NCBI RefSeq assembly: GCF_900102695.1
Contig: NZ_FMVW01000002.1
Coordinates: forward strand, 310,001-374,000
From: Afifella marina DSM 2698
GTDB lineage: Bacteria; Pseudomonadota; Alphaproteobacteria; Rhizobiales; Afifellaceae
Length of the DNA stretch: 64,000 nucleotides
Reading direction: 5' to 3'
Shown here: piece after piece, positions 13,853 through 36,008 of the stretch
Position numbering within the stretch: the stretch's first letter is position 1
How the letters are laid out: the number at the start of each line of letters is the position of its first letter
Notes under the pieces: generated by a model
Database searches by the model: none
What the model was told of the DNA's origin: nothing
The model's input: the letters and a program-made list of their open reading frames with translations, nothing else
Made by a program: the position numbers and the translations under genes

Positions 13853-14550
13853 GCGGCAAGGCTTCGATCGGCGATCTTGAAGAGCGGATCGGCCATCATT
13901 TCGCCCGCCCGGACCTTCTCAAGCGCGCGCTGACGCATGCGAGCGCGATTGGTGACGAGCGGCGCGGCGATCCGCTTAATACCTATGAACGGCTGGAGTT
14001 CCTGGGCGACCGGGTGCTCGGCCTCGTGATTGCCGATTTGTTGATCGAGGAATATCCGCAGGCGCCGGAGGGCGAGTTGTCCCGCCGGCTCGCACGGCTC
14101 GTCAATCGCGACGCCTGTGCGGAAGTGGCGGAGGAGATGCATCTTGCCGAGCATTACCGCGTCGGCGAGAGCCTGGCGCGGGCGACGGAGCGCACGGCGC
14201 GGTCGATCCTCGCCGATACATGTGAATCGGTGATCGGCGCGGTCTTCCGCGATGCCGGCCTGGATGCGGCCAAGGTCATCATTCACCGTTTTTGGATCAA
14301 GCGGCTGCGGACGATGCAGGGCCCGCTGCGGGACGCCAAGACCGAATTGCAGGAATGGGCGCATCGCAACGGGCACGGGACGCCGCGCTATCAGGAGAGT
14401 GGACGAAGAGGGCCGGACCATGCGCCGGAATTCTCCGTCAAAGTTTTGATCGAAGGCGCCGAAGGGGCAGAGGGCCGAGGCCCGTCGAAGCGAGAGGCCG
14501 AACATGCGGCCGCTTCCGCCATTCTGCGTCGCGAGGGGGTATGGCTGTGA
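13849..14550 (+). CDS. rnc: Ribonuclease III
   Basis: Double-strand-specific endoribonuclease for rRNA and mRNA processing. It is 233 residues. The family signature ERLEFLGDRVLG is at residues 47-58, with the second acidic cluster in DTCESVIGAVF. A C-terminal dsRNA-binding domain follows (TELQEWAHRNGHGTPRY, SKREAEHAAASAIL). It is part of the lepB-rnc-era operon, with overlaps at both ends. Confidence 0.97.
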   Translation: MSGKASIGDLEERIGHHFARPDLLKRALTHASAIGDERRGDPLNTYERLEFLGDRVLGLVIADLLIEEYPQAPEGELSRRLARLVNRDACAEVAEEMHLAEHYRVGESLARATERTARSILADTCESVIGAVFRDAGLDAAKVIIHRFWIKRLRTMQGPLRDAKTELQEWAHRNGHGTPRYQESGRRGPDHAPEFSVKVLIEGAEGAEGRGPSKREAEHAAASAILRREGVWL

Positions 14551-20499: not shown

Positions 20500-21066
20500 A
20501 TGGCATTTGATTCACGGGCCATAGCGAATCATTTTCTCGATCTCGCGGATCGACGAGGAGAGCTGCTGTCTTCTATGAAGCTCTTGAAGATACTTTATTT
20601 CGCTCATGCTTGGCATTTGGCCAAATATCAAGAGCCTCTTGTTGGTCAACCTTTCGAGGCGTGGAAGCATGGGCCTGTAAATAGAGCTGTATACGATCAG
20701 ATAAAAGTATATAAAAATCAAAAAATAACTGGCCGGCTAAAGGTTATAGATGTTTTTTCTGGAGAGTTTGTGGATGCCAAGTGTGTTTTAGATTCGGAAA
20801 AATCCACATTTCTTGAAAATATATATTCATATTATTATAGTTTTCACCCATATAAGCTCTCTGATTTGACGCATGAGCCGGGCTCGCCTTGGGATACCGT
20901 CTGGAGAGCTGCGGAGGAGCGCTCGGTCCCGGGGATGTTGATACCAGATGCGTTAATCCTCGAGTGGTTTGTAAAGGCGCGGCGTACAATGTATGTTCGG
21001 GGGAACAAGGAGCGAACAGATGACTCGCTTGATTGCACCCCCATTGGCCGAGGTTATTCGAGCTGA
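20500..21066 (+). CDS. Panacea-domain (DUF4065) protein, candidate antitoxin
   Basis: 188 residues. The Panacea/SocA-like signature is clear: MKLLKILYFAHAWHLAKYQEPLVGQPFEAWKHGPV split over residues 26-60, followed by a helical C-terminus. Panacea domains are known as versatile antitoxins paired with many toxins. The coding sequence is AT-rich (many ATA, TTT, AAA and AGA codons) against GC-rich neighbours, suggesting horizontal transfer. It overlaps the next gene by 47 bases, typical of a toxin-antitoxin pair. It lies between gatA and gatB. A proteolytic-adaptor role (as for SocA) is an alternative. Confidence 0.85.
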   Translation: MAFDSRAIANHFLDLADRRGELLSSMKLLKILYFAHAWHLAKYQEPLVGQPFEAWKHGPVNRAVYDQIKVYKNQKITGRLKVIDVFSGEFVDAKCVLDSEKSTFLENIYSYYYSFHPYKLSDLTHEPGSPWDTVWRAAEERSVPGMLIPDALILEWFVKARRTMYVRGNKERTDDSLDCTPIGRGYSS

Positions 21067-24879: not shown

Positions 24880-25020
24880 GGTCTCTCCCCGGAGGCTGAG
24901 CCTTGCCGGGATGCCGGGTGCAGCCTTGCGATCTGGCGCGCGGCCGGCGGCGGGCGACTGGCCTCTTTCCTTTCGGCGAAACGGTGGTCTATAGCGGGCG
25001 CAACGCTGGAGCCTTTGCGA

Positions 25021-26517
25021 ATGATCGCCGAAAACCGCAATACCAATCCCAAAAACCTCATCGCCGGTGCGACCGGTGACTGGGAAATCGTCATCGGCAT
25101 GGAAGTCCATGCCCAGGTCGCTTCGAACTCGAAGCTCTTTTCCGGCGCCGCCACGGCGTTCGGAGGCGAGCCGAACGATCATGTGAGCCTCGTCGATGCG
25201 GCCATGCCCGGCATGCTGCCGGTGATCAACGAGGAATGCGTGGCGCAGGCGGTGCGCACGGGGCTCGGCCTCAAGGCTGAGATCAACCATCGCTCGGTTT
25301 TCGCCCGCAAGAACTACTTCTATCCCGATCTTCCTCAGGGTTATCAGATCTCGCAGTACGACCAGCCGATCGTCGGCGAGGGCGAGATCATCGTCGAGGT
25401 CGGTCCCGACAAGAAGGGCGAGTTCGAAGAGATCATGATCGGCATCGAGCGGCTGCATCTGGAACAGGATGCCGGCAAGTCGCTGCACGACCAACACGAG
25501 ACGATGAGCTTCGTCGATCTCAACCGCTCGGGCGTCGCCCTGATGGAGATCGTCTCCAAGCCCGATCTCAGGTCGTCCGAGGAGGCCAAGGCCTATCTCG
25601 CCAAGCTGCGTTCGATCCTGCGCTATCTCCGGACCTCCGACGCCGATATGGACAAGGGCAATCTCCGGGCGGACATCAACGTTTCGGTGCGCCGGCCGGG
25701 CGAGCCTTTCGGCACCCGTTGCGAAATCAAGAACGTCAATTCCATTCGCTTCGCCGGGCAGGCGATCGAATATGAAGCGCGCCGCCAGATCGGCGTCATC
25801 GAGGATGGCGGCAAGATCGATCAGGAGACGCGGCTCTTCGATCCCAACAAGGGCGAGACGCGGTCCATGCGCTCCAAGGAAGAGGCGCATGATTATCGCT
25901 ATTTCCCCGATCCCGACCTTCTGCCGCTCGAGTTCGACGCCGCCTATGTCGAGGCGCTGGCCGCCGATCTGCCGGAATTGCCCGACGACAAGCGCGTGCG
26001 GCTGATCCAGGCTTTCGGCCTGTCGGCCTATGACGCGTCGATCCTCGTCTCCGAGCGCGCCATCGCCGATTATTTCGAGCATGTCGCGGAGGGCCGCGAC
26101 GGCAAGCAGGCGGCGAACTGGGTGATCAACGATCTTCTGGGCGCGCTCAACAAGGACGGACAAACGATCGAGGATTCGCCGGTTTCGCCGGCCCAGCTCG
26201 GCGAAATTCTCGACATGCTCAAGGAAGGGGTGATCTCCGGTAAGATCGCCAAGGACCTCTTCGAGATCGTCTACAGCGAGGGCGGCGATCCACGCGACAT
26301 CGTCGAGACGCGGGGCATGAAGCAGGTGACCGACACCGGCGCCATCGAGAAGGTGGTCGACGAGGTGATCGCCGCCAACCCGGATAAGGTGGAGCAGGCG
26401 AAGGCAAAGCCGACGATGATCGGCTGGTTTGTCGGCCAGGTGATGAAGGCGAGCCAGGGCAAGGCCAACCCGCAGGCCGTCAACGCCCTGTTGAAGGACA
26501 AGCTCGGCATCGAATAG
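25021..26517 (+). CDS. gatB: Asp/Glu-tRNA(Asn/Gln) amidotransferase subunit B
   Basis: Activates the tRNA-linked carboxylate and transfers ammonia from GatA. It is 498 residues from the ATG at 25021. Signature elements are [41 protein letters not shown], and [10 protein letters not shown] with RCEIKNVNS. The C-terminal YqeY-like tRNA-binding tail is present. It is separated from gatA by the Panacea, Rid, MFS and DUF6455 genes. Confidence 0.97.
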
Positions 26518-27582: not shown

Positions 27583-27613
27583 AAAAAGGCGACTGCACTT
27601 GCGTGCAGCCGCC
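27583..27613 (-). terminator. Intrinsic terminator of the RiPP-like operon
   Basis: On the minus strand an 11-bp stem (GGCGGCTGCAC/GTGCAGTCGCC, one G-U pair) closed by a GCAA tetraloop is followed at once by TTTTT. It stands 25 bases after the stop of the 20-codon peptide gene, which supports that tiny gene being transcribed. Confidence 0.85.
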
Positions 27614-27638
27614 TCCACAATACCTGGACTGGAAGAGA

Positions 27639-27701
27639 TTACTTCTTGCCGCCCTTACCGCCCTTCGGATCCTTCGGGCCCGGCTTCGGAGTATTTGCCA
27701 T
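27639..27701 (-). CDS. 20-residue Pro/Lys/Gly peptide, possible second peptide product
   Basis: The ORF is 21 codons including the stop. It begins MANTPKPGPKDP and ends in a Lys/Gly-rich tail; six of the twenty residues are Lys, four are Pro and five are Gly. It has no Cys, Tyr or other aromatic residue. AGGA lies eight bases before the ATG, and a strong terminator follows 25 bases after the stop. It is the last gene on the RiPP-like transcript, 234 bases after the precursor. It may be a second substrate, a regulator or a stand-alone small protein. Confidence 0.6.
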   Translation of the reverse strand: MANTPKPGPKDPKGGKGGKK

Positions 27702-27815
27702 CGTCTCTATCCTGAAAGCATCGGCGGTGTTGGCTGGGCCGGAATTGGCCTTTAGAGCTCACCGTCGATAGATGAAATCTTGTTTTTGACTTGTGTCCGC
27801 GTTGAGGCGGAAATG

Positions 27816-27861
27816 CGGCGCAAATCCGGCATCGTGAAGGTAATGCCGCGACTTTGCGCCG
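27816..27861. other. Large stem-loop between the precursor and the small peptide gene
   Basis: Outer stem CGGCGCAAA/TTTGCGCCG (27816-27824 with 27853-27861, 9 bp) and inner stem CGGCAT/ATGCCG (27827-27832 with 27843-27848, 6 bp) around a 10-base loop. It has no T-run in either direction, so it is not a standard terminator. It could be an mRNA-stabilising or processing element for the abundant precursor message. Confidence 0.6.
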
Positions 27862-27935
27862 GCGAATGAACGGGCCGAAGCGCGGGGGCGCCGGTTTGGA
27901 AAGCACTGCTGCGCATGCGAGCGAACGGCCGGTTC

Positions 27936-28178
27936 TCAGCCCTTCACGTAGCACGTGTTTTTAACGTAGCAGGTATCCTTCACGTAACAGGTGTCCTTCA
28001 CGTAACAGGTGTCCTTCACGTAACAGGTGTCCTTCACGTAGCAGGGATCTTTGACGTAGCAGCTCGCGCGGACATGAAGGTCATCCGCCTCCGCAGCCGG
28101 TTGCGATGGCCCCGGTTCCGCGATCTGCTCCCGCCTGTGGCTTCGGCCATAGGCGCTCAGCGTGTAGGTCTTCTTCAT
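27936..28178 (-). CDS. Candidate RiPP precursor with seven CYVK repeats
   Basis: 80 residues, translated from an ATG with a near-perfect ribosome site (AAGGAG, spacing 5). The leader (residues 1-39) begins MKKTYTLSAYGR and is followed by polar and acidic residues. The C-terminal half is seven CYVK units exactly six residues apart (Cys at 40, 46, 52, 58, 64, 70 and 76), with linkers DP, four DT, NT, and a final G before the stop. Such repeats next to radical SAM/SPASM genes are typical of peptides modified after translation. The first 98 bases overlap the 3' end of the second radical SAM gene in another frame. I do not recognise the repeat as a named RiPP class. Confidence 0.82.
   Translation of the reverse strand: MKKTYTLSAYGRSHRREQIAEPGPSQPAAEADDLHVRASCYVKDPCYVKDTCYVKDTCYVKDTCYVKDTCYVKNTCYVKG
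27939..28061 (-). repeat. 18-bp tandem repeat array encoding the CYVKDT core
   Basis: Seven units with an 18-base period (the last truncated). Three central units are identical at DNA level (TGT TAC GTG AAG GAC ACC); the flanking units differ by a few bases. The near-identity suggests recent expansion or gene conversion, while the frame and the Cys-Tyr-Val-Lys residues are fully kept. Confidence 0.92.
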
Positions 28179-29187
28179 CGTGGCTCCTTCGTTCGGCTGT
28201 GGCCAGCGGCTTGAAGGCGAGACAGCCGCCCTGGCAGATATCGAGGGTGCGCCATTTGCAGGTCTCACACGCCTTCCGGGTCGGGACCTCCCAGCGCAGC
28301 GTTTGGACCGTCTCTTCGATCGTCTCGACGATTTCCTTGGCGTCCGCATAACCGTCGATGCGGCCGAAGCTCAGATGCTTCAAAGGCCCGCAATAAAAAA
28401 GCTGAAGGCCGGGCGTCACGTCGATGGCGCCGGGGCAGGCGAAGGACAGGAATATCCCGGCCTCTTTCAGGCGTGCCAGACGCTCGTTGTCGACCGCGCA
28501 GACGGGAAGGCAGCAATCCGTGTTGAGGGCGATGCCGTCCTTCTGGCAGCGTTCGGCGATCTTTTCGAAGAGCGGCATCATCGCGGGCAGCGCCTCAAAG
28601 CCGACATGGGTGTTGGTTGCCGCGGAATTGGGTTTGGCGACGTCGACCCGCAGATGCCGCGCGCCATAGCGTTCCAGGAGATCGAAGACGAAGTCGACCT
28701 CCTGATCGGGCGCGAAGAGGTTGAGGCTGAGGCTGAACGGTTCACGCCCGCGGCCGCGGGCGATGATGTCGAGATTGGCGTTGAGCCGGCGCCACAGGCG
28801 CCCGCGATAGCTCAACGGATGGTTGATATTGAGCATCAGTCCGCAGGGCGTTTCGCCGAGGAATTCGGCGATCTGAGGCTCGAAGATGCCGTTGGAGAAA
28901 ACGTTGACGGGCAGCGGCGCACCGTTCGGCAGAGCGAATTCGCGCGAGCGGGCGATTGCAAGGAGCTCACGAAAGCGCGGGTGCAGCGTCGGTTCGCCGC
29001 CGAGCAGGTTGACGCTGTCGCGAAGCCCCGTGGCGACGAAATCCCGCCCGTAACGCAGGGCGAGGCGGAAATTCTCTTCAGAGATGATGTCGTGACCGCC
29101 GCGCTCCGCCGGGCGGGCATTCAGGCTGCCGGCGAAGAAGCAATAGGCGCAGGTGAGGTTGCAGCGTTCGATGAGGAGGAGGTTCAT
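28081..29187 (-). CDS. Radical SAM protein with C-terminal auxiliary cluster, RiPP maturase candidate
   Basis: 368 residues from the ATG at 29187, which overlaps the upstream maturase stop (ATGA). The radical SAM motif CxxxCxxC is near the N-terminus (C9, C13, C16 in CNLTCAYC), followed by the GGEP-type SAM motif (LLGGEPTLHP). Six C-terminal cysteines (C251, C266, C307, C310, C318, C322; pattern C-x2-C-x7-C-x3-C) resemble SPASM/twitch cluster ligands. The last 32 codons overlap the precursor gene. The short start with no N-terminal extension suggests it relies on a partner for peptide recognition. Exact chemistry is unknown. Confidence 0.85.
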   Translation of the reverse strand: MNLLLIERCNLTCAYCFFAGSLNARPAERGGHDIISEENFRLALRYGRDFVATGLRDSVNLLGGEPTLHPRFRELLAIARSREFALPNGAPLPVNVFSNGIFEPQIAEFLGETPCGLMLNINHPLSYRGRLWRRLNANLDIIARGRGREPFSLSLNLFAPDQEVDFVFDLLERYGARHLRVDVAKPNSAATNTHVGFEALPAMMPLFEKIAERCQKDGIALNTDCCLPVCAVDNERLARLKEAGIFLSFACPGAIDVTPGLQLFYCGPLKHLSFGRIDGYADAKEIVETIEETVQTLRWEVPTRKACETCKWRTLDICQGGCLAFKPLATAERRSHDEEDLHAERLWPKPQAGADRGTGAIATGCGGG

Positions 29188-30935
29188 GCCAACACCTCGC
29201 CGAAGAGGGCCGTGCAATAGCGCCTGAAAAGCGATCCCTGGGGTTCGTCGATGAAGCGCCAGAAGAGCTCTTCCACCAATTCGCGGCTGAAGCGGCATCG
29301 TTCGGTCCCGCGCGCGGGATCGGAATCGACGAGGACGGAGACGCCGATATTGGTGCAGCCGTAATGGGCGAGGCTTGCGGCGGGACACGAGCCGCCGCAG
29401 AAGGCGAGGATGGGGCAGGCGGCGCAGGAAACCGCGTTGCCGGCCTCCGCGGCACAGGCGTTCGGATGCTCGCAGAAAAGATCGGGATCATAAAAGCTCG
29501 TCACCTGCGGGCAGGTCTGTTCCAGCGGTGCGTCGAGCAGACGCCGCGTGCAGTCCGGGGCGGCGACATCGCCGATGAGATAGCGGTCGATGAGGTCGCG
29601 GTGACAGGCAAAAGCGCGGCCCGTCGGATCGACGGCGAAATAGATGTCGCCCATGCCGCAGGTCTGGCGTTCGCCGCCGCGGGCCACGCGGTGAAGGAGC
29701 GAGGTGACGGGTCCGAAATCGAAGATGCGGCCCGTCCAGTCATAGAGGTTCAGCACCGTCTCGAAGGCGTCGAGATATTCCCGCTTCAAGATTGCCGGAT
29801 CCGGTGCTGCGACGCCGGCAACCCGTCTGCCATGGGCGACGTCCTGCATGGGGATGAAGGAGGCGGCGCTCAGCCCCCAGGCGGCATATTTCTCGATCGA
29901 TCGGCGCACGGCGCTCTGGTTGTGATCGCTCACCGTGGCGCGCAGGCCGACGCGCACGCCGGCATCGAGGAGCCGCCGCAGCCCGTTCTCGACCGTCTTG
30001 CCGCTCTTTGAATGGTGGCCGGGGAAGGGGCGCTGCCAGTCGTTCACCTCCACAGGCGGATCGAAGGAGAGCGCGACACGAACATCGTAGGCTTTGAAGA
30101 AGGCGATGAGATCGTCGTCGATCTGCGTGCCGTTGTCGTCGATCGCGAAGCGGATGAAGATCTTTTCGCGGGCGGCATAGGCGCTGAGGTATGCGGCCGC
30201 GTGACAAAGGAAGTCGCGCACCTTGCCCTTCAACGATGGCTGGCCCCCGAAGAACACGACGTTGAGGCATCCAATGCCCCAGCGCTGGCGGATGTAATCG
30301 ACAAATGTGCGGGCGAAGGCCGCAAGCGTCGCCTCCGACATGACGCCGACGGCTTTTTCGGACGGCTCGGCCGGCGCGTTATCCATCACATGGCAGTACC
30401 GGCAGCGCAGATTGCAGGCGTCGGTGATGAGGAGCGACACTTCCACGAAGGGGGCCGAATCCGGTGGAGCGAAGGTCGACCAGGGCCTGGTGCCGTCGCG
30501 ACGGAAGATCTCCAGCTTCTCGTCCAGGTCCTGGCGGAAGGCGGTTTCGCGCGCCCGCATCGCCGCGTCGTAGCCGCGGCGCACTTGGCGGATGCAGTCT
30601 GCGGCCGGCTCGGGCGGGGCGAAGAAACGCTCCTCCTCGAACGCGGTGAGATAATCCTCCGCCTTTCTCGGGACGGCGGCACGGAACGCCTCCTCGTCGA
30701 GGCCCCGTCTGAGCGCAAGGACGTCGCTCTCGTCGGCGTCGAAGACGAGGTAGCGGGAAACCGGCACTTCGCAATCGTTGAACAGCGCAAAGCGGCCCGT
30801 GCGAAAATCCCGGATGGCTTTGACGCCGGGCGCGAAGACGAGCCGGCGCGGACTGGCGCCACCCGGAAAGGCGACAGCTGGGGAGAGGGCGGCAGTGGAG
30901 GCAGTGCCGCGAGAGGCCGCAAGCGTTTTATCCAT
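29184..30935 (-). CDS. Radical SAM/SPASM peptide maturase
   Basis: 583 residues. A long N-terminal region (residues 1-165, containing FRTGRFALFNDCEVPVSRYLVF) could hold a peptide-recognition fold; this is inference. The radical SAM core has C174, C178 and C181 in CNLRCRYC, then FFGGQPSL. The SPASM region has C426 (TCGMGD), C444 (GRAFACHRD), C504, C507, C513, C517 and C527, enough for two auxiliary 4Fe-4S clusters, with the typical AFCGGSCPAA. Enzymes of this type install thioether or carbon-carbon links in peptides. The ATG overlaps the end of the glycosidase gene by eight bases and its stop overlaps the next gene. Confidence 0.92.
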   Translation of the reverse strand: MDKTLAASRGTASTAALSPAVAFPGGASPRRLVFAPGVKAIRDFRTGRFALFNDCEVPVSRYLVFDADESDVLALRRGLDEEAFRAAVPRKAEDYLTAFEEERFFAPPEPAADCIRQVRRGYDAAMRARETAFRQDLDEKLEIFRRDGTRPWSTFAPPDSAPFVEVSLLITDACNLRCRYCHVMDNAPAEPSEKAVGVMSEATLAAFARTFVDYIRQRWGIGCLNVVFFGGQPSLKGKVRDFLCHAAAYLSAYAAREKIFIRFAIDDNGTQIDDDLIAFFKAYDVRVALSFDPPVEVNDWQRPFPGHHSKSGKTVENGLRRLLDAGVRVGLRATVSDHNQSAVRRSIEKYAAWGLSAASFIPMQDVAHGRRVAGVAAPDPAILKREYLDAFETVLNLYDWTGRIFDFGPVTSLLHRVARGGERQTCGMGDIYFAVDPTGRAFACHRDLIDRYLIGDVAAPDCTRRLLDAPLEQTCPQVTSFYDPDLFCEHPNACAAEAGNAVSCAACPILAFCGGSCPAASLAHYGCTNIGVSVLVDSDPARGTERCRFSRELVEELFWRFIDEPQGSLFRRYCTALFGEVLA

Positions 30936-31665
30936 AACCGATCACCCAGCAGGGGATGGAGCTGTCATTGCCCCCTTTCACGAGGACCTTGTCGTTGACG
31001 GCAAGCGAGGTGGAGCCGCCCCCGTCGAGGAAGACCGCGTCGGTGACGCCTCTCGCCTGCATGGCGTCCGCCATTTCGGCGGGCCTCATGCCCTTATGGG
31101 CGGGGGTTTCCTTTTCGGTTGCGACGAAGACGAGAAGCCGGCCGGATGTGTCGATGCCGAGCGCCGGCCGCGAGGTTTTGCGGATCGCATCGTCGAGGAA
31201 GAACTGGCCGGAATTGTCTTTCAGCGTCGCGCTACCGGCGACATTCTTGCCACCGGAGAGCAGACGCCCGAGACCGCCCAAAGCTGCGTGGTAGGTGGCG
31301 CGGTAGCTGGCTTCGAGGTCTTTGGGGGCCTCCGGGAGCAGGGCGCGCTCATAGATCGTCGGCTGGTCGAAGAGGGTGATGGCGAAGCCGAAGCGTTTTC
31401 TCGCTTTCGGTTCTGAGGTGAGATGGAGATGGCCGGAAAGCGTCAGGACGTCTCCGAGAAGCCGACCGGCGTAGAAGAAGGTGCCGTTGATGGCGAAACT
31501 CTTGCCGGTCTTCGCCTTGCGATGCGCGAGGGCTGCGGCCGAGGCGATGCCGCCCCTGCCGACATGCACGTCGATCTTGAAGCTGGCACCCGGCTTGTCG
31601 ATCCAGAGGAGGTGGCCGGTTTCCGGGATGTGGGAATGATCGAGCATCTTTTGCACCTCACTCAC
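30928..31665 (-). CDS. Phosphodiester glycosidase (NAGPA) fold protein
   Basis: 245 residues with the NAGPA-domain hallmarks: FAINGTFF, RPALGIDTSGRLLVFVA, and GVTDAVFLDGGGSTSLAVND near the C-terminus. Known members (for example the uncovering enzyme) remove N-acetylglucosamine from a phosphodiester; many bacterial members are uncharacterised. No signal peptide is seen, so it should act in the cytosol, unlike most relatives. It overlaps both neighbours in the RiPP-like operon (ATGA with the upstream gene), implying a role in the same pathway. Confidence 0.88.
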   Translation of the reverse strand: MSEVQKMLDHSHIPETGHLLWIDKPGASFKIDVHVGRGGIASAAALAHRKAKTGKSFAINGTFFYAGRLLGDVLTLSGHLHLTSEPKARKRFGFAITLFDQPTIYERALLPEAPKDLEASYRATYHAALGGLGRLLSGGKNVAGSATLKDNSGQFFLDDAIRKTSRPALGIDTSGRLLVFVATEKETPAHKGMRPAEMADAMQARGVTDAVFLDGGGSTSLAVNDKVLVKGGNDSSIPCWVIGYG

Positions 31666-32060
31666 TCTTTGGGCAGGGTGGCGAGCATCCGGCGATAGCG
31701 GTCCGCCAGCGCTCTCCAGGCTGACTGGTCACCCTCCTCGTGGACGACATGGAAGGTGGCGATCTCGGTAAACTGGCGCACCAGATCGCGGCAGAGCGGC
31801 TTTGCATCCTTCAGATCGTGCCGGAGGAGGTTGGCGATCTCGTCGTAGAACTGTGTGAGGGCGACGACTTTTCCGGCGTCATCTTGCCGGCCGAGGGCGT
31901 TCATCAGCTCCTGGGTCTTGTCGGCGGCGACACTGCCCTGGGCGACGAAGTTGTTGATTTCACTTTGCGTCGCCGTGCCGGTAACGATCCTCGGATATGC
32001 GTCTTTTATCGCAAGAAGGATCTTGCAGGCATCCCGAAAGAGCGTCTGAGGCGCCGTCAT
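31662..32060 (-). CDS. Small helical protein, first gene of the RiPP-like operon
   Basis: 132 residues from the ATG at 32060 (GGAGGGA about six bases upstream), preferred over longer in-frame starts. Predicted mostly helical: LFRDACKILLAIKDAYPRI, SEINNFVAQGSVAADKTQELM, LTQFYDEIANLLRH, ALADRYRRMLATL. No family recognised. It may be a peptide carrier, regulator or partner of the maturases. Its stop overlaps the glycosidase start (ATGA). Confidence 0.75.
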   Translation of the reverse strand: MTAPQTLFRDACKILLAIKDAYPRIVTGTATQSEINNFVAQGSVAADKTQELMNALGRQDDAGKVVALTQFYDEIANLLRHDLKDAKPLCRDLVRQFTEIATFHVVHEEGDQSAWRALADRYRRMLATLPKE

Positions 32061-32613
32061 GGCGTCCCTCCCTCGATGAATTCTCATCGTTCAGGTCGAG
32101 CTCGTCTCTCTGGAAAGAGTAAAGTCTAACTTCGGACGCAAAGACGACTTTGCGGCGTGCTCGCATTGCCTGAAAATGTATCATAATTATTGTATTCGTT
32201 CATGTGTTTGCTGTTGCGGCCAGTCGCCGCGTTGGGGGCTGGTGCCTGCGGAGCCGCTCCCCGCAACTCCCCATCGCTTGAAAGGCGGCGGTGCGGCGGG
32301 CCCGTCGTCAGTGACCGCCATGAGTGACCGCCGTGAGTGACTCGAGCGGCCGGAGGCCGTGTGTCTGGCACGCTGTGAGACCGGGTGCCTCACGGACCGT
32401 GCGAACGCTCTCATCTTGTGCAATCGGGGATGTTGGCTTCGGCCGGAATCGGCCTTAAGCACGCGCGGGACCCGACGGGCTGCGCGGTCTGAACGAGATC
32501 GTGCGGTCGTCGGCGGGGGCGGGGGAACGCATGTCCCGCTCAAGCTGTCGTGCGCAGATCGCACTTGCATTCGTGACTGCGCTTGCATTCGAGAAAGAGG
32601 TTGAGCGACAGGA
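32061..32613. other. Divergent intergenic region upstream of the RiPP-like operon
   Basis: 553 bases with no gene. An AT-rich patch (about 32160-32210) on the minus-strand side, including TATGAT, is the likely operon promoter region. The palindrome listed separately lies between it and the first gene. The GNAT-side half is GC-rich with short repeats (GTGACCGCC at about 32309-32335; CTTGCATTCG at about 32560-32590). Confidence 0.45.
32137..32154. promoter_or_regulatory. Perfect palindrome upstream of the RiPP-like operon
   Basis: CGCAAAG-ACGA-CTTTGCG, a 7-bp inverted repeat with a 4-base spacer, 77 bases before the first start codon of the operon and just downstream of its AT-rich promoter region. 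It could be an operator or a 5' leader hairpin. Confidence 0.45.
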
Positions 32614-33075
32614 ATGTCTGGACTTTCTATCCGCCGAGCCAAACGGGGTGATCTCGCGGCGTTGATCGCCATCTTTGCGGCCGACGACGTTGGTGGCCAT
32701 GGCGATACGCTGCATCCTGCGGCCTTGCCGTCCTACCAGAAGGCGTTCGAGGAGCTGGCCGACAGCCCGGACGAATGTCTTTACGTTGCCGAACAAGACG
32801 GTGAAGTGGTCGGCACCTTTCAGCTCGGATTTCGCTATTCGCTGCCCGATCGCGGTGCCCTGAAAGCCACGCTCGAAGCCGTGCAGGTGCGCCCCGCCGA
32901 GCGGGGGCAGGGGATCGGCGGCAAGCTCGTGCGCTTTGCCATCGCCGAGGCGCGGCGCAAGGGCGCGCATTCGCTCTCCCTCACGTCGAACAACGCCCGC
33001 CGCGACGCGCACCGCTTCTATGAGCGCCTCGGGTTTCAGAACACGCATCGCGGCTACAAGCTTTTTCTGGACTGA
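32614..33075 (+). CDS. GNAT-family N-acetyltransferase
   Basis: 153 residues: acetyl-CoA motif LEAVQVRPAERGQGIGGKLVRFAI and the C-terminal YERLGFQNTHRGYKLFL. AGGA lies just upstream of the ATG. It is transcribed divergently from the RiPP-like operon and followed by guaA after 58 bases. The substrate is unknown, and there is no sign that it acts on the RiPP. Confidence 0.9.
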   Translation: MSGLSIRRAKRGDLAALIAIFAADDVGGHGDTLHPAALPSYQKAFEELADSPDECLYVAEQDGEVVGTFQLGFRYSLPDRGALKATLEAVQVRPAERGQGIGGKLVRFAIAEARRKGAHSLSLTSNNARRDAHRFYERLGFQNTHRGYKLFLD

Positions 33076-33133: not shown

Positions 33134-34717
33134 ATGAAAGAGCATCCCTCCGAACAGCACGATACGCTGCTCATCATCGACTTCGGCTCGCAGGTCACCC
33201 AGCTCATTGCGCGGCGGGTGCGCGAAGCCGGCGTCTATTCCGAAGTCGTGCCCTTCCAGAAGGCCGAAGAGGCGCTTAAGCGGCTCAATCCCCGTGGCAT
33301 CATCCTTTCGGGCAGTCCGGCGAGCACGACGGAAATCGACACGCCGCGCGCGCCGCAGGCGATCTTCGAGGCCGGCCTGCCGGTGCTCGGCATCTGCTAT
33401 GGCGAGCAGACGATCTGCCGGCAGCTCGGCGGCGAGGTGGAGCTTTCCGACCATCGCGAATTCGGCCGCGCCTTCGTCGAGGTGAAAGAGGCCTCGCCGC
33501 TCTTTGAGGGCGTGTGGGACAAAGGCTCGCGCTACCAGGTGTGGATGAGCCACGGCGACAAGGTGACGGCCATCCCTGAGGGCTTTCGCGTCATCGCCGC
33601 CTCAAGCGGGGCGCCCTTTGCCGCGATCTCCGATGAAAGCCGCAAGATCTACGGCGTGCAGTTTCATCCCGAAGTGGTGCACACGCCGGACGGGGCGCGG
33701 CTGATTGCGAATTTCGCGCACAAGGTCGTGGGCCTCAAAGGCGACTGGTCGATGGCGGCCTTCCGCGAAGAAGCGATCTCCCGCATCCGCGAGGATGTGG
33801 GCTCCGGCCGTGTCATCTGCGGGCTTTCCGGCGGCGTCGATTCCTCGGTCGCGGCGGTTCTCCTGCACGAGGCGATCGGTGATCAGCTCACCTGCATCTT
33901 CGTCGATCACGGGCTGATGCGCTTGGGCGAGGGCGAGGAAGTCGTTTCTCTCTTCCGCGACCATTACAATATCCCGCTCGTGCATGTGCGCGCCGAGGAC
34001 ATCTTCCTCTCCGCACTCGAAGGCGAGGCGGACCCGGAGACGAAGCGCAAGACGATCGGGCGCCTCTTCATCGAGACCTTTGAAGCCGAGGCGGAGAAGC
34101 TTGCCGCCGACGGGCGCAAGGCGCCGGAATTTCTGGCGCAGGGCACGCTCTATCCGGACGTCATCGAATCCGTTTCCTTCACCGGCGGGCCTTCGGTGAC
34201 GATCAAATCGCACCACAATGTCGGCGGCCTGCCGGAGCGGATGAACCTCAAGCTCGTCGAGCCGCTGCGTATGCTCTTCAAGGACGAGGTGAGGGCGCTC
34301 GGGCGTGAGCTTGGACTGCCGGAGAGCTTTGTGGGGCGCCATCCTTTCCCGGGGCCGGGGCTCGCCATCCGCTGCCCGGGCGGCGTGACGCGCGACAAGC
34401 TCGACATCCTGAGGAAGGCCGATGCGATCTATCTCGACGAGATCCGCAAGGCCGGGCTCTATGATGCGATCTGGCAGGCCTTTGCCGTGCTTTTGCCGGT
34501 GCAGACCGTCGGCGTGATGGGCGATGCGCGCACCTATGATTTCGTCTGCGCGCTCCGCGCCGTCACCTCGGTCGACGGCATGACGGCCGACTTCTTCCAC
34601 TTCGACATGGACTTTCTGGGCGCGGCCGCAACGCGCATCATCAACGAGGTGAAAGGCATCAACCGCGTCGTCTACGACGTGACCTCGAAGCCGCCGGGAA
34701 CCATCGAGTGGGAGTGA
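33134..34717 (+). CDS. guaA: GMP synthase (glutamine-hydrolysing)
   Basis: Converts XMP to GMP. It is 527 residues. The class-I glutaminase domain has nucleophile C88 in LGICYGEQT and the His-Glu of GVQFHPEV. The ATP-pyrophosphatase domain has the P-loop [12 protein letters not shown] and [11 protein letters not shown]; the dimerisation domain ends in the conserved PPGTIEWE. The 3' end of guaA is a well-known integration site for genomic islands. Confidence 0.98.
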
Positions 34718-35060
34718 GGGGTAACCCGAGCAAGAAGACAGAGCGGCACAGGATATTTTTTTAATTATCCATAGCACGATCCCAATCGCCCTGACCGTTT
34801 TAGGCAACTCTCTGGGTCTTCGTGGTGTAGTGTCCGAGTTTCTGTGAGTTAGTGCTGCCGGCAGAAGTTTTTGGCAGTGTTTCCAGTAGTGTCTTTCAAT
34901 TGTAAATGAAAGCCCGAGGAGGCTGCCGCTAGCTGGAATGGCTGAAATTGACGCCAGTTTTCTGCCACTCAATGCGCTACTTTCCCTGTAATGTAAAGAT
35001 TAGAGGCGCTTTATTCTTTTGTGTTGAGCGTTTCGGTTCGCTCTGCGTCAGGGATTCTTA
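34718..35060. other. AT-rich region after guaA
   Basis: 343 bases between guaA and an AT-richer orphan gene. Base composition shifts sharply from the GC-rich guaA. No tRNA, integrase or clear terminator was seen. A perfect CTGCCGGCAG palindrome occurs at about 34855. The region may be foreign DNA or a decayed island edge. Confidence 0.45.
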
Positions 35061-36008
35061 ATGAGCGTTTGGCGCCCCGTGACAGACAATCTCTCGGGCT
35101 ATCTGTTTAGTCTGAGCGATTCACTTCGTCTCGCCGAGGCTCAAAATCCCGATATGTTGGTTTCAGTACACCGCGGTACAATGGTCCTCGCGAGTGATTA
35201 CTCTGGTCAACATAAGGAAGCGAGCCACGAAGCTTATTCCTTCCTTATTACGACTGATGAGGCGCTGATCCGCTGGCTGCCCTCCTTGAGTGAGTTTCGC
35301 GGACAATGGCTACCGGATGGCCGGCGCATTTCGTTCAAGAAACTCAATGAACCTGTCCGTTGGCGGGCGCTTCCAGCTTTTCTCGAAACGGTAAGCGAAC
35401 TAGAGGGCAATCTTATAACGATCCTTGTTGATAAGCGGGTAGGAAGTTTTATGTCGGGCGGTCCTGAAGCAACTGTAGAAGCGTTTCCTGACTGTTTTGA
35501 TGCTCGCATTAAGAAAGGAACGATAGAGAAGATGTTCCGCCTTGCGAGCTTTGTTGCCTTGATCTTGGCGGGATTTCGTCACCAGAAGCAGGTTTCGAAT
35601 TGGATAAGTGACCATGACGAAGCGCTTGATAGTCATGATAAGCGAGAAAAATTTGCGCGCTTGGCTACGTATCTTACATTTGGCCTTACAGGCTGGCGGC
35701 AGGCGGCCGATCATCTCTTCGCTACTACAGAGTCACATATGGCGCCCTATTGGTCGGAGGATGTGGCAGCGGTAGCAGACCTCGCCGCAGGCGCCTATTG
35801 TCAGTTGAGTGGCTATTTGCCTGCATTCGTGGGCAGGGAGACTTGGCGAATGAGACTGAATCCAAGCAGTATCGAAAATCGGCGTGCGAGTGCGATTGGC
35901 AATTGGCTGGCCGAAAGTCGAGGTTCCCTCAAGCATGCGCTACTTCGGTTGGAACAGGATAGCGAGGGTGAGGTTCGGGCATCGGCCCAGGCATTCGTTG
36001 GTCGTTAA
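35061..36008 (+). CDS. Orphan protein of unknown function, probably horizontally acquired
   Basis: 315 residues with no family I can name. An early beta-strand with VLASDYSGQHKEASHEAYSFLIT resembles the Asp-x-Ser-Gly entry of RNase H-like/DUF3800 proteins, but this is a weak resemblance. Codon usage (many TTT, CTT, AAA, GAT) is AT-richer than its neighbours. It is a single gene, flanked by guaA and by a noncoding region. AGGGA lies just before the ATG. Confidence 0.7.
   Translation: MSVWRPVTDNLSGYLFSLSDSLRLAEAQNPDMLVSVHRGTMVLASDYSGQHKEASHEAYSFLITTDEALIRWLPSLSEFRGQWLPDGRRISFKKLNEPVRWRALPAFLETVSELEGNLITILVDKRVGSFMSGGPEATVEAFPDCFDARIKKGTIEKMFRLASFVALILAGFRHQKQVSNWISDHDEALDSHDKREKFARLATYLTFGLTGWRQAADHLFATTESHMAPYWSEDVAAVADLAAGAYCQLSGYLPAFVGRETWRMRLNPSSIENRRASAIGNWLAESRGSLKHALLRLEQDSEGEVRASAQAFVGR

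Follow-up and report, generated by a model that had tools for sequence, protein, structure and literature searches.

The closest described systems are those in which radical S-adenosylmethionine (SAM) enzymes modify short, regular peptides, and they are compared here with a locus of Afifella marina DSM 2698 at which two radical SAM enzymes (enzymes 1 and 2) are encoded beside a peptide of repeated Cys-Tyr-Val-Lys (CYVK) hexads. The locus lies within the 64,000-nucleotide stretch of contig NZ_FMVW01000002.1 (positions 310,001 to 374,000) that was analysed as a whole, called the window below. PapB makes thioethers (PMC9413430), and the PapB/freyrasin system shares with the locus a radical SAM/SPASM enzyme and a Cys-rich, regular substrate; unlike it, the window system has a second radical SAM enzyme and identical hexads, and the repeat of its planctomycete relative has no Asp. 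In SCIFF (thermocellin) the thioether joins Cys32 to Thr37 (PMC8326336), the same +5 spacing at which nine of ten CYVK units carry Thr or Ser; dissimilar from SCIFF, the relative has Ser at this place, there is no six-Cys SCIFF peptide, and enzyme 1 scored 60.4 bits against the SCIFF model (TIGR03974, cut-off 425). A repeat precursor served by two radical SAM enzymes is also found in the His-Xaa-Ser systems (HxsB/HxsC, TIGR03978/TIGR03977); however, enzyme 1 reached 54.9 bits against HxsB (cut-off 370), HxsC was absent among the best 25 families for enzyme 2, and the window peptide has no His-x-Ser repeats. In the TvgB/TvgA poly-cyclopropylglycine system, Val is modified by TvgB in each unit of a short tandem TVGG repeat (PMC9062424); compared by description only, this system differs in its single radical SAM enzyme and in the repeat itself. 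CefB (NF038107) is a radical SAM/SPASM family with regular Cys spacing, every fifth residue by the family's name, but the spacing in the window peptide is six, and enzyme 1 scored 37.5 bits against a cut-off of 600. Thuricin CD is a further case, made from sactipeptide precursors that are not known to contain such repeats. Its TrnC and TrnD are two radical SAM enzymes that act as a complex (PMC12093266), a likeness to the window pair that was likewise drawn from description only.

In outline, the window system resembles the maturation of ribosomally synthesized and post-translationally modified peptides (RiPPs), yet it falls within the tested definition of no named class. The cluster is genuine: an accessory, rarely found system of two enzymes, accompanied by a conserved motif that is the candidate substrate. 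With a probability of about 0.68, we take it to be a rare maturation system in which two radical SAM enzymes modify (S/T)-Cys-Tyr-Val-Lys-x hexads; it would be RiPP-like in the window and protein-embedded in a planctomycete.

Gene layout and the hexad repeat

The genes in question lie on the minus strand in the order helical protein, NAGPA-fold protein, enzyme 1, enzyme 2 and repeat peptide, within a stretch that is an insert relative to related genomes:

27874..32628, no strand: insert of 4755 bp, missing from congeners G001 and G003 (33 bp in place) and from G002 and G004
31662..32060, minus strand: 132-residue (helical) protein, no family match
30928..31647, minus strand: NAGPA-fold protein, 239 residues from its ATG, with an alternative GTG start at 31665
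29184..30935, minus strand: radical SAM enzyme 1, 583 residues, SPASM-type, with a long N-terminal part
28081..29187, minus strand: radical SAM enzyme 2, 368 residues, short, with SPASM-like C-terminal cysteines
27936..28178, minus strand: repeat peptide, 80 residues, probable substrate, a putative leader (residues 1-39) and then seven CYVK units
27939..28061, minus strand: the seven CYVK units (CYVKDP, CYVKDT four times, CYVKNT, CYVKG)

The original prediction had described a cluster of six genes linked by overlaps. Five of these genes are present as described; the sixth, a 20-codon gene, lies outside the cluster and is treated with the insert boundaries below. The sequence bears out the overlaps of four bases (ATGA) at 29184-29187, 8 bases at 30928-30935 and 98 bases at 28081-28178, the last of which places the final codons of enzyme 2 within the repeat-peptide gene; an ATGA claimed at 31662-31665 was wrong, as the letters there read GTGA. 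An AAGGAG stands directly upstream of the repeat-peptide ATG. The NAGPA-fold label was well founded (PF09992, 60.3 bits against a Pfam cut-off of 25). A Pfam scan of the insert's five genes revealed no recognisable exporter or protease, so that processing and export, if any, would require other genes, and nothing was found in Rfam and tRNA scans.

The Cys-Tyr-Val-Lys repeat was also correctly recognised, with seven CYVK units at a period of six residues (18 nt). Among these units the first and second codon positions of C, Y, V and K are constant, while three of the four third positions vary (Fisher p = 0.018, for units that are not independent). When the window's own genome was searched with the repeat peptide, one other match was obtained, a meaningless one (E 1.08).

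Co-occurrence in a planctomycete and rarity of the enzyme pair

When 84,980 species genomes were scanned by pattern, an approach that divergent copies escape, one relative of enzyme 1 was returned, and by this measure the enzyme pair looks rare. The relative is encoded on a 3.6-kb contig of a metagenome-assembled genome (MAG) of Candidatus Brocadiia (Planctomycetota), where it adjoins a relative of enzyme 2; identities to the window enzymes are 45% and 43%, and the two MAG genes overlap by one base (TGATG) where the window counterpart is the four-base ATGA. An ATPase-domain protein (HATPase_c_2, 77.5 bits) is encoded upstream of the MAG enzyme 1, and the contig ends 122 bp beyond enzyme 2. No repeat gene was seen on this contig, and neither the NAGPA nor the helical gene is on it; a search of the MAG for the helical protein gave no match, an empty answer of little weight.

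Searching the MAG with the repeat peptide revealed, on another contig, an open reading frame (ORF) of 273 residues that contains FKAASCYVKSSCYVKSSCYVKSSCYVKRSEH, with four CYVK units six residues apart, followed by a TPR region (TPR_2, 27.4 bits, cut-off 27). Lack of co-occurrence of the precursor with the maturases had been set beforehand as refuting; as far as this could be tried, the prediction withstood it, since the sole other genome found with both enzymes also encodes CYVK hexads. Because the MAG repeats belong to a TPR protein of 273 residues, encoded on a contig apart from the enzymes, such a system need not take the form of a small secreted RiPP. On planctomycete contig C401 (303-4603), two further genes lie behind the CYVK-TPR gene, one for a HemW-type radical SAM protein (263.8 bits, cut-off 205.4) and then one for an ABC transporter with no equivalog among its best 25 families.

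Across the seven window and four MAG units, C, Y, V and K are invariant (11 of 11). Position 5 is D in five window units, N and G in the others, and S (three) and R in the MAG; position 6 is P and five T in the window and four S in the MAG, a count of 10 units since the last window unit stops before this position. The residue preceding the first Cys is Ser in both proteins. A Cys-X3-Asp spacing of the freyrasin type occurs in five of the seven window units and in none of the four MAG units, and it was accordingly demoted as a defining motif.

It is improbable, in our estimate, that the hexads are unmodified structural or metal-binding repeats (e.g., of a beta-helix) with the enzymes acting elsewhere. 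Models of hexapeptide beta-helix acyltransferases do match the repeats weakly (best E 7e-4, 18.5 bits, cut-off 292), and the MAG repeat gene is not adjacent to the enzyme genes; however, the identical repeat accompanies the same enzyme pair in two phyla, the peptide gene overlaps the enzyme 2 gene in the window, and seven hexads would be short for a beta-helix.

Genome counts made with a two-sequence profile of enzyme 1 also point to rarity. At E <= 1e-25 the MAG was the one genome found among 294 from its phylum; at E <= 1e-20 the profile found one of 385 genomes of the window's class, the window's own, and two of 398 of the window's phylum, these being the own genome and a partial match (8.8e-21, 73.4 bits). 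Nine of 149 relatives of the MAG matched at E <= 1e-15, and all except the MAG's ortholog were partial, at 57-69 bits. Among 100 relatives of the window genome no enzyme 1 ortholog was found (14 gave matches at E <= 0.001, each partial and none above 45 bits), and the NAGPA protein matched none of 60 relatives at E <= 0.001. The repeat peptide matched 16 of 294 planctomycete genomes at E <= 0.01 and is thus not specific by E-value alone; in one matched locus each from nine of the 15 non-MAG genomes, read in six frames, there was no CYVK-like hexad repeat, and the other six genomes had no locus to read.

Mobile elements were covered by the same approach. Viral contigs held no relatives of enzyme 1, enzyme 2 or the NAGPA protein, phages gave no match to enzyme 2 or to the repeat peptide, and plasmids gave none to the NAGPA protein, the helical protein or the planctomycete repeat. 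Plasmid relatives of enzyme 1 numbered 36 records with the window protein as query and 92 with the planctomycete protein, none of which covers 80% of the query; in two of their contexts (Bradyrhizobium and Nostoc) a single radical SAM gene is listed. The repeat peptide matched six plasmid records at 17-35% identity. One viral hit to the CYVK pattern, antisense to a long reading frame that looks phage-like by eye, was discounted as coincidental.

Enzyme families and candidate chemistry

Both enzymes were identified as radical SAM proteins (PF04055, 39.4 and 47.4 bits, cut-off 29.5) with the CX3CX2C motifs CNLRCRYC and CNLTCAYC. The best NCBIfam match of enzyme 1 was PapB (NF047865, 105.5 bits, E 3.2e-30, cut-off 340), followed by the nif11 maturase (92.4 bits), sulfatase maturase (74.9 bits) and QhpD-type (72.8 bits) models; the cyclophane maturases YhhB, FxsB and XyeB scored 68.1, 60.2 and 59.3 bits (cut-offs 445, 370 and 450). 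The best 25 of 59 families for enzyme 1 and the best 25 of 37 for enzyme 2 (maximum 33.1 bits) were all under cut-off, which answers in part the concern, raised in the original prediction, that the enzymes might belong to an existing radical-SAM-peptide family model. The SPASM label given to enzyme 1 is supported by the PapB and sulfatase-maturase matches over residues 166-524 and by the Cys layout judged by eye, but Pfam gave no SPASM match. No Pfam PqqD match, as a sign of a PqqD-like RiPP recognition element (RRE), was found in enzyme 1. Structure models built from two-sequence alignments were poor, with a mean predicted local distance difference test (pLDDT) score of 39.0 for enzyme 1 and 53.6 for enzyme 2, and a fold search with the poor enzyme 1 model, whose top matches were peptide maturases such as 5wgg, 5v1q and 6efn, adds little. 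Viperin-type defence was rejected for enzyme 2, which scored 33.1 bits against NF038283 (cut-off 180) and 35.7 bits against PADLOC pVip over residues 2-85 only.

In the proposed maturation system, the two enzymes, of which the shorter enzyme 2 is translationally coupled to enzyme 1, would act on the hexads sequentially or as a complex. Most likely, each Cys would form a thioether to a partner kept in both organisms, either Ser/Thr at +5 or Lys at +3; a thioether made by enzyme 1 is ranked first because the nearest models include thioether makers (PapB and SCIFF). A second change would fall on Tyr-Val-Lys, as a Tyr-x-Lys cyclophane, a candidate chemistry taken from PMC11002830, or as a change to Val like that made by TvgB. 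Enzyme 2 may add this second bond or may work complexed with enzyme 1 in the manner of TrnC and TrnD.

A freyrasin-like account, in which a PapB-type enzyme 1 would form a thioether between Cys-S and the C-beta of the Asp in each Cys-X3-Asp motif to give a ranthipeptide and enzyme 2 would be accessory, was judged unlikely. The PapB model is the top match of enzyme 1, five of the seven window units have the spacing, and PapB is described as promiscuous in spacing and as accepting Glu (PMC9413430); against this, the score is far under the family cut-off, and Asp is missing from two window units and from every planctomycete unit. Since the relative has no Asp at that place, the acceptor cannot be Asp alone. 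Slightly better placed, though still doubtful, is a triceptide-like route by which one or both enzymes would join Tyr to the Lys two residues on (Tyr-Val-Lys) in a three-residue cyclophane and the Cys would be used otherwise. Tyr-x-Lys is invariant across the 11 units, enzyme 1 does score with YhhB, FxsB and XyeB, and PMC11002830 cites a paper whose title mentions Tyr-containing cyclophane motifs; however, the cyclophane-enzyme scores are below their cut-offs and below the PapB score, and the invariance of Cys would be left without explanation.

Going further than dual maturation of the hexads as such, a tentative and bolder proposal is that of a new protein modification, by which both enzymes would cross-link each (S/T)CYVK hexad into an undescribed unit, in a stand-alone peptide in the window's organism and within a TPR protein in the planctomycete, to form a rigid or metal-binding repeat acting in the cell. 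Any modified repeats may stay intracellular, built into a protein instead of being secreted as a peptide, because the insert has no recognisable exporter or protease and the MAG hexads are embedded in a TPR protein. Should the hexads prove to be modified, two co-operating radical SAM enzymes would be reading a code of four residues, Cys-Tyr-Val-Lys, which would amount to a new substrate rule; repetition would make the modification easy to see by mass, with up to seven identical steps for each change; the same motif in a small peptide and in a TPR protein would join RiPP chemistry to the modification of ordinary proteins. No description of Cys-Tyr-Val-Lys, by itself or with radical SAM enzymes, of a Cys-every-fifth system, or of a phosphodiester glycosidase combined with a radical SAM RiPP was found in the open-licence literature.

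Several points weigh against the proposed maturation system. The peptide gene is beside the enzyme genes in the window, but in the sole relative the genes for repeat and enzymes are split between two contigs; an 89-bp upstream sequence shared by the two contigs (86.5% identity) and their similar G+C (0.386 and 0.371) support one genome, are no proof of linkage, and leave misbinning of one contig possible. As the system is known in two genomes only, the conservation of C, Y, V and K rests on a single comparison. Evidence for an RRE in enzyme 1 was obtained neither by a profile comparison of low power (probability 0.1%) nor from the structure model, which was too poor (pLDDT 39). The NAGPA and helical proteins are in the insert and have no assigned role. 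Finally, we know of no chemistry that fits the hexad motif.

Distant plasmid relatives of enzyme 2 were found in Chlorohelix (26.9% identity, 88% covered) and Thiodictyon (22.3%, 73% covered). In Chlorohelix a radical SAM gene (PapB, 104.6 bits) and an ORF of 98 residues that matched no family precede the gene, with a third radical SAM gene located further along. The Thiodictyon gene, whose product has its own PqqD match just under the cut-off (22.4 against 23.4 bits), is preceded by a PqqD-radical SAM fusion (PqqD, 33.2 bits) and followed by genes annotated amidohydrolase, YcaO and TfuA. Because these relatives adjoin other radical SAM or PqqD genes, enzyme 2 is placed, on gene neighbourhood, in a diffuse group that accompanies peptide-modification genes. 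The Chlorohelix cluster (locus L038, 7333-13889) is itself a candidate peptide or protein modification system; besides its three radical SAM genes it encodes two proteins, one WD40 and one unknown, which have a common N-terminal segment and C-termini that are rich in Cys and end in YWYPN or YWHPN. On the Thiodictyon plasmid (locus L039, 7576-14147), a small unannotated ORF at 13905-14147 ends in CKC and could be a precursor.

Boundaries of the insert and neighbouring features

The comparison stretch was taken from four congeners (G001-G004) with guaA as anchor. The window flanks align with G001 and G003 at 90-96% as far as 27873 and again from 32629 onward, and in those two genomes 33 bp separate the aligned parts, which defines 27874-32628 as an insert relative to them; in G002 and G004, where the flanks have diverged further, 181 and 102 bp are left between the aligned parts. 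With a G+C of 0.635 against 0.631 for the window, the insert bears no compositional mark of foreign origin. The remaining features are:

27639..27701, minus strand: 20-codon gene, product MANTPKPGPKDPKGGKGGKK
32423..32464, minus strand: upstream element, a second copy of the one preceding the 20-codon gene

All four congeners lack the cluster and carry the 20-codon gene, which places that gene outside the cluster; its product is identical in G001 and G003 and has Asn3 replaced by Ser in G002 and G004, and it is a conserved small protein of the ancestral chromosome. A strong intrinsic terminator had been thought to end the cluster. The hairpin is present at 27585-27616 with 14 pairs, but its DNA is matched in the cluster-free G001 and G003 (the alignment ends before it in G002 and G004), which argues against membership of the cluster. 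The region holds seven terminator-like sites against 7.0 expected from shuffles, so that this hairpin is distinguished by stem length alone. The terminator is thus no part of the cluster itself, though transcription of the cluster may read through into the hairpin. With the 20-codon gene ancestral, and the hairpin ancestral at least in the two nearest congeners, the six-gene cluster was dropped.

The operon-side copy of the upstream element is inside the insert. Its segment 32423-32459 matches the 20-codon-gene copy (27720-27755) at 84% over 37 columns and the G004 copy at 83% over 41 columns. Two exact copies of the core AAGGCCRATTCCGGCC occur in the window, and three copies if up to two mismatches are allowed, where 0.20 are expected; a longer pattern matched the operon copy alone because the other copy has a one-base gap. 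The element may represent a shared promoter region or regulation, or an insertion scar.

The locus is flanked by gatB (25015-26517) on one side and by a GNAT acetyltransferase gene (32614-33075) and guaA (33134-34717) on the other. A SocA/Panacea antitoxin-like protein (Pfam 78.2 bits; NCBIfam 146.7 bits, under its cut-off of 190) is encoded at 20500-21066 on the plus strand, between gatB and a gatA-like gene named by eye. At 34500-36000 the G+C dips to 0.52-0.53 around an ORF (35061-36008), just past guaA, that matches no NCBIfam or Pfam family and is perhaps another insert.

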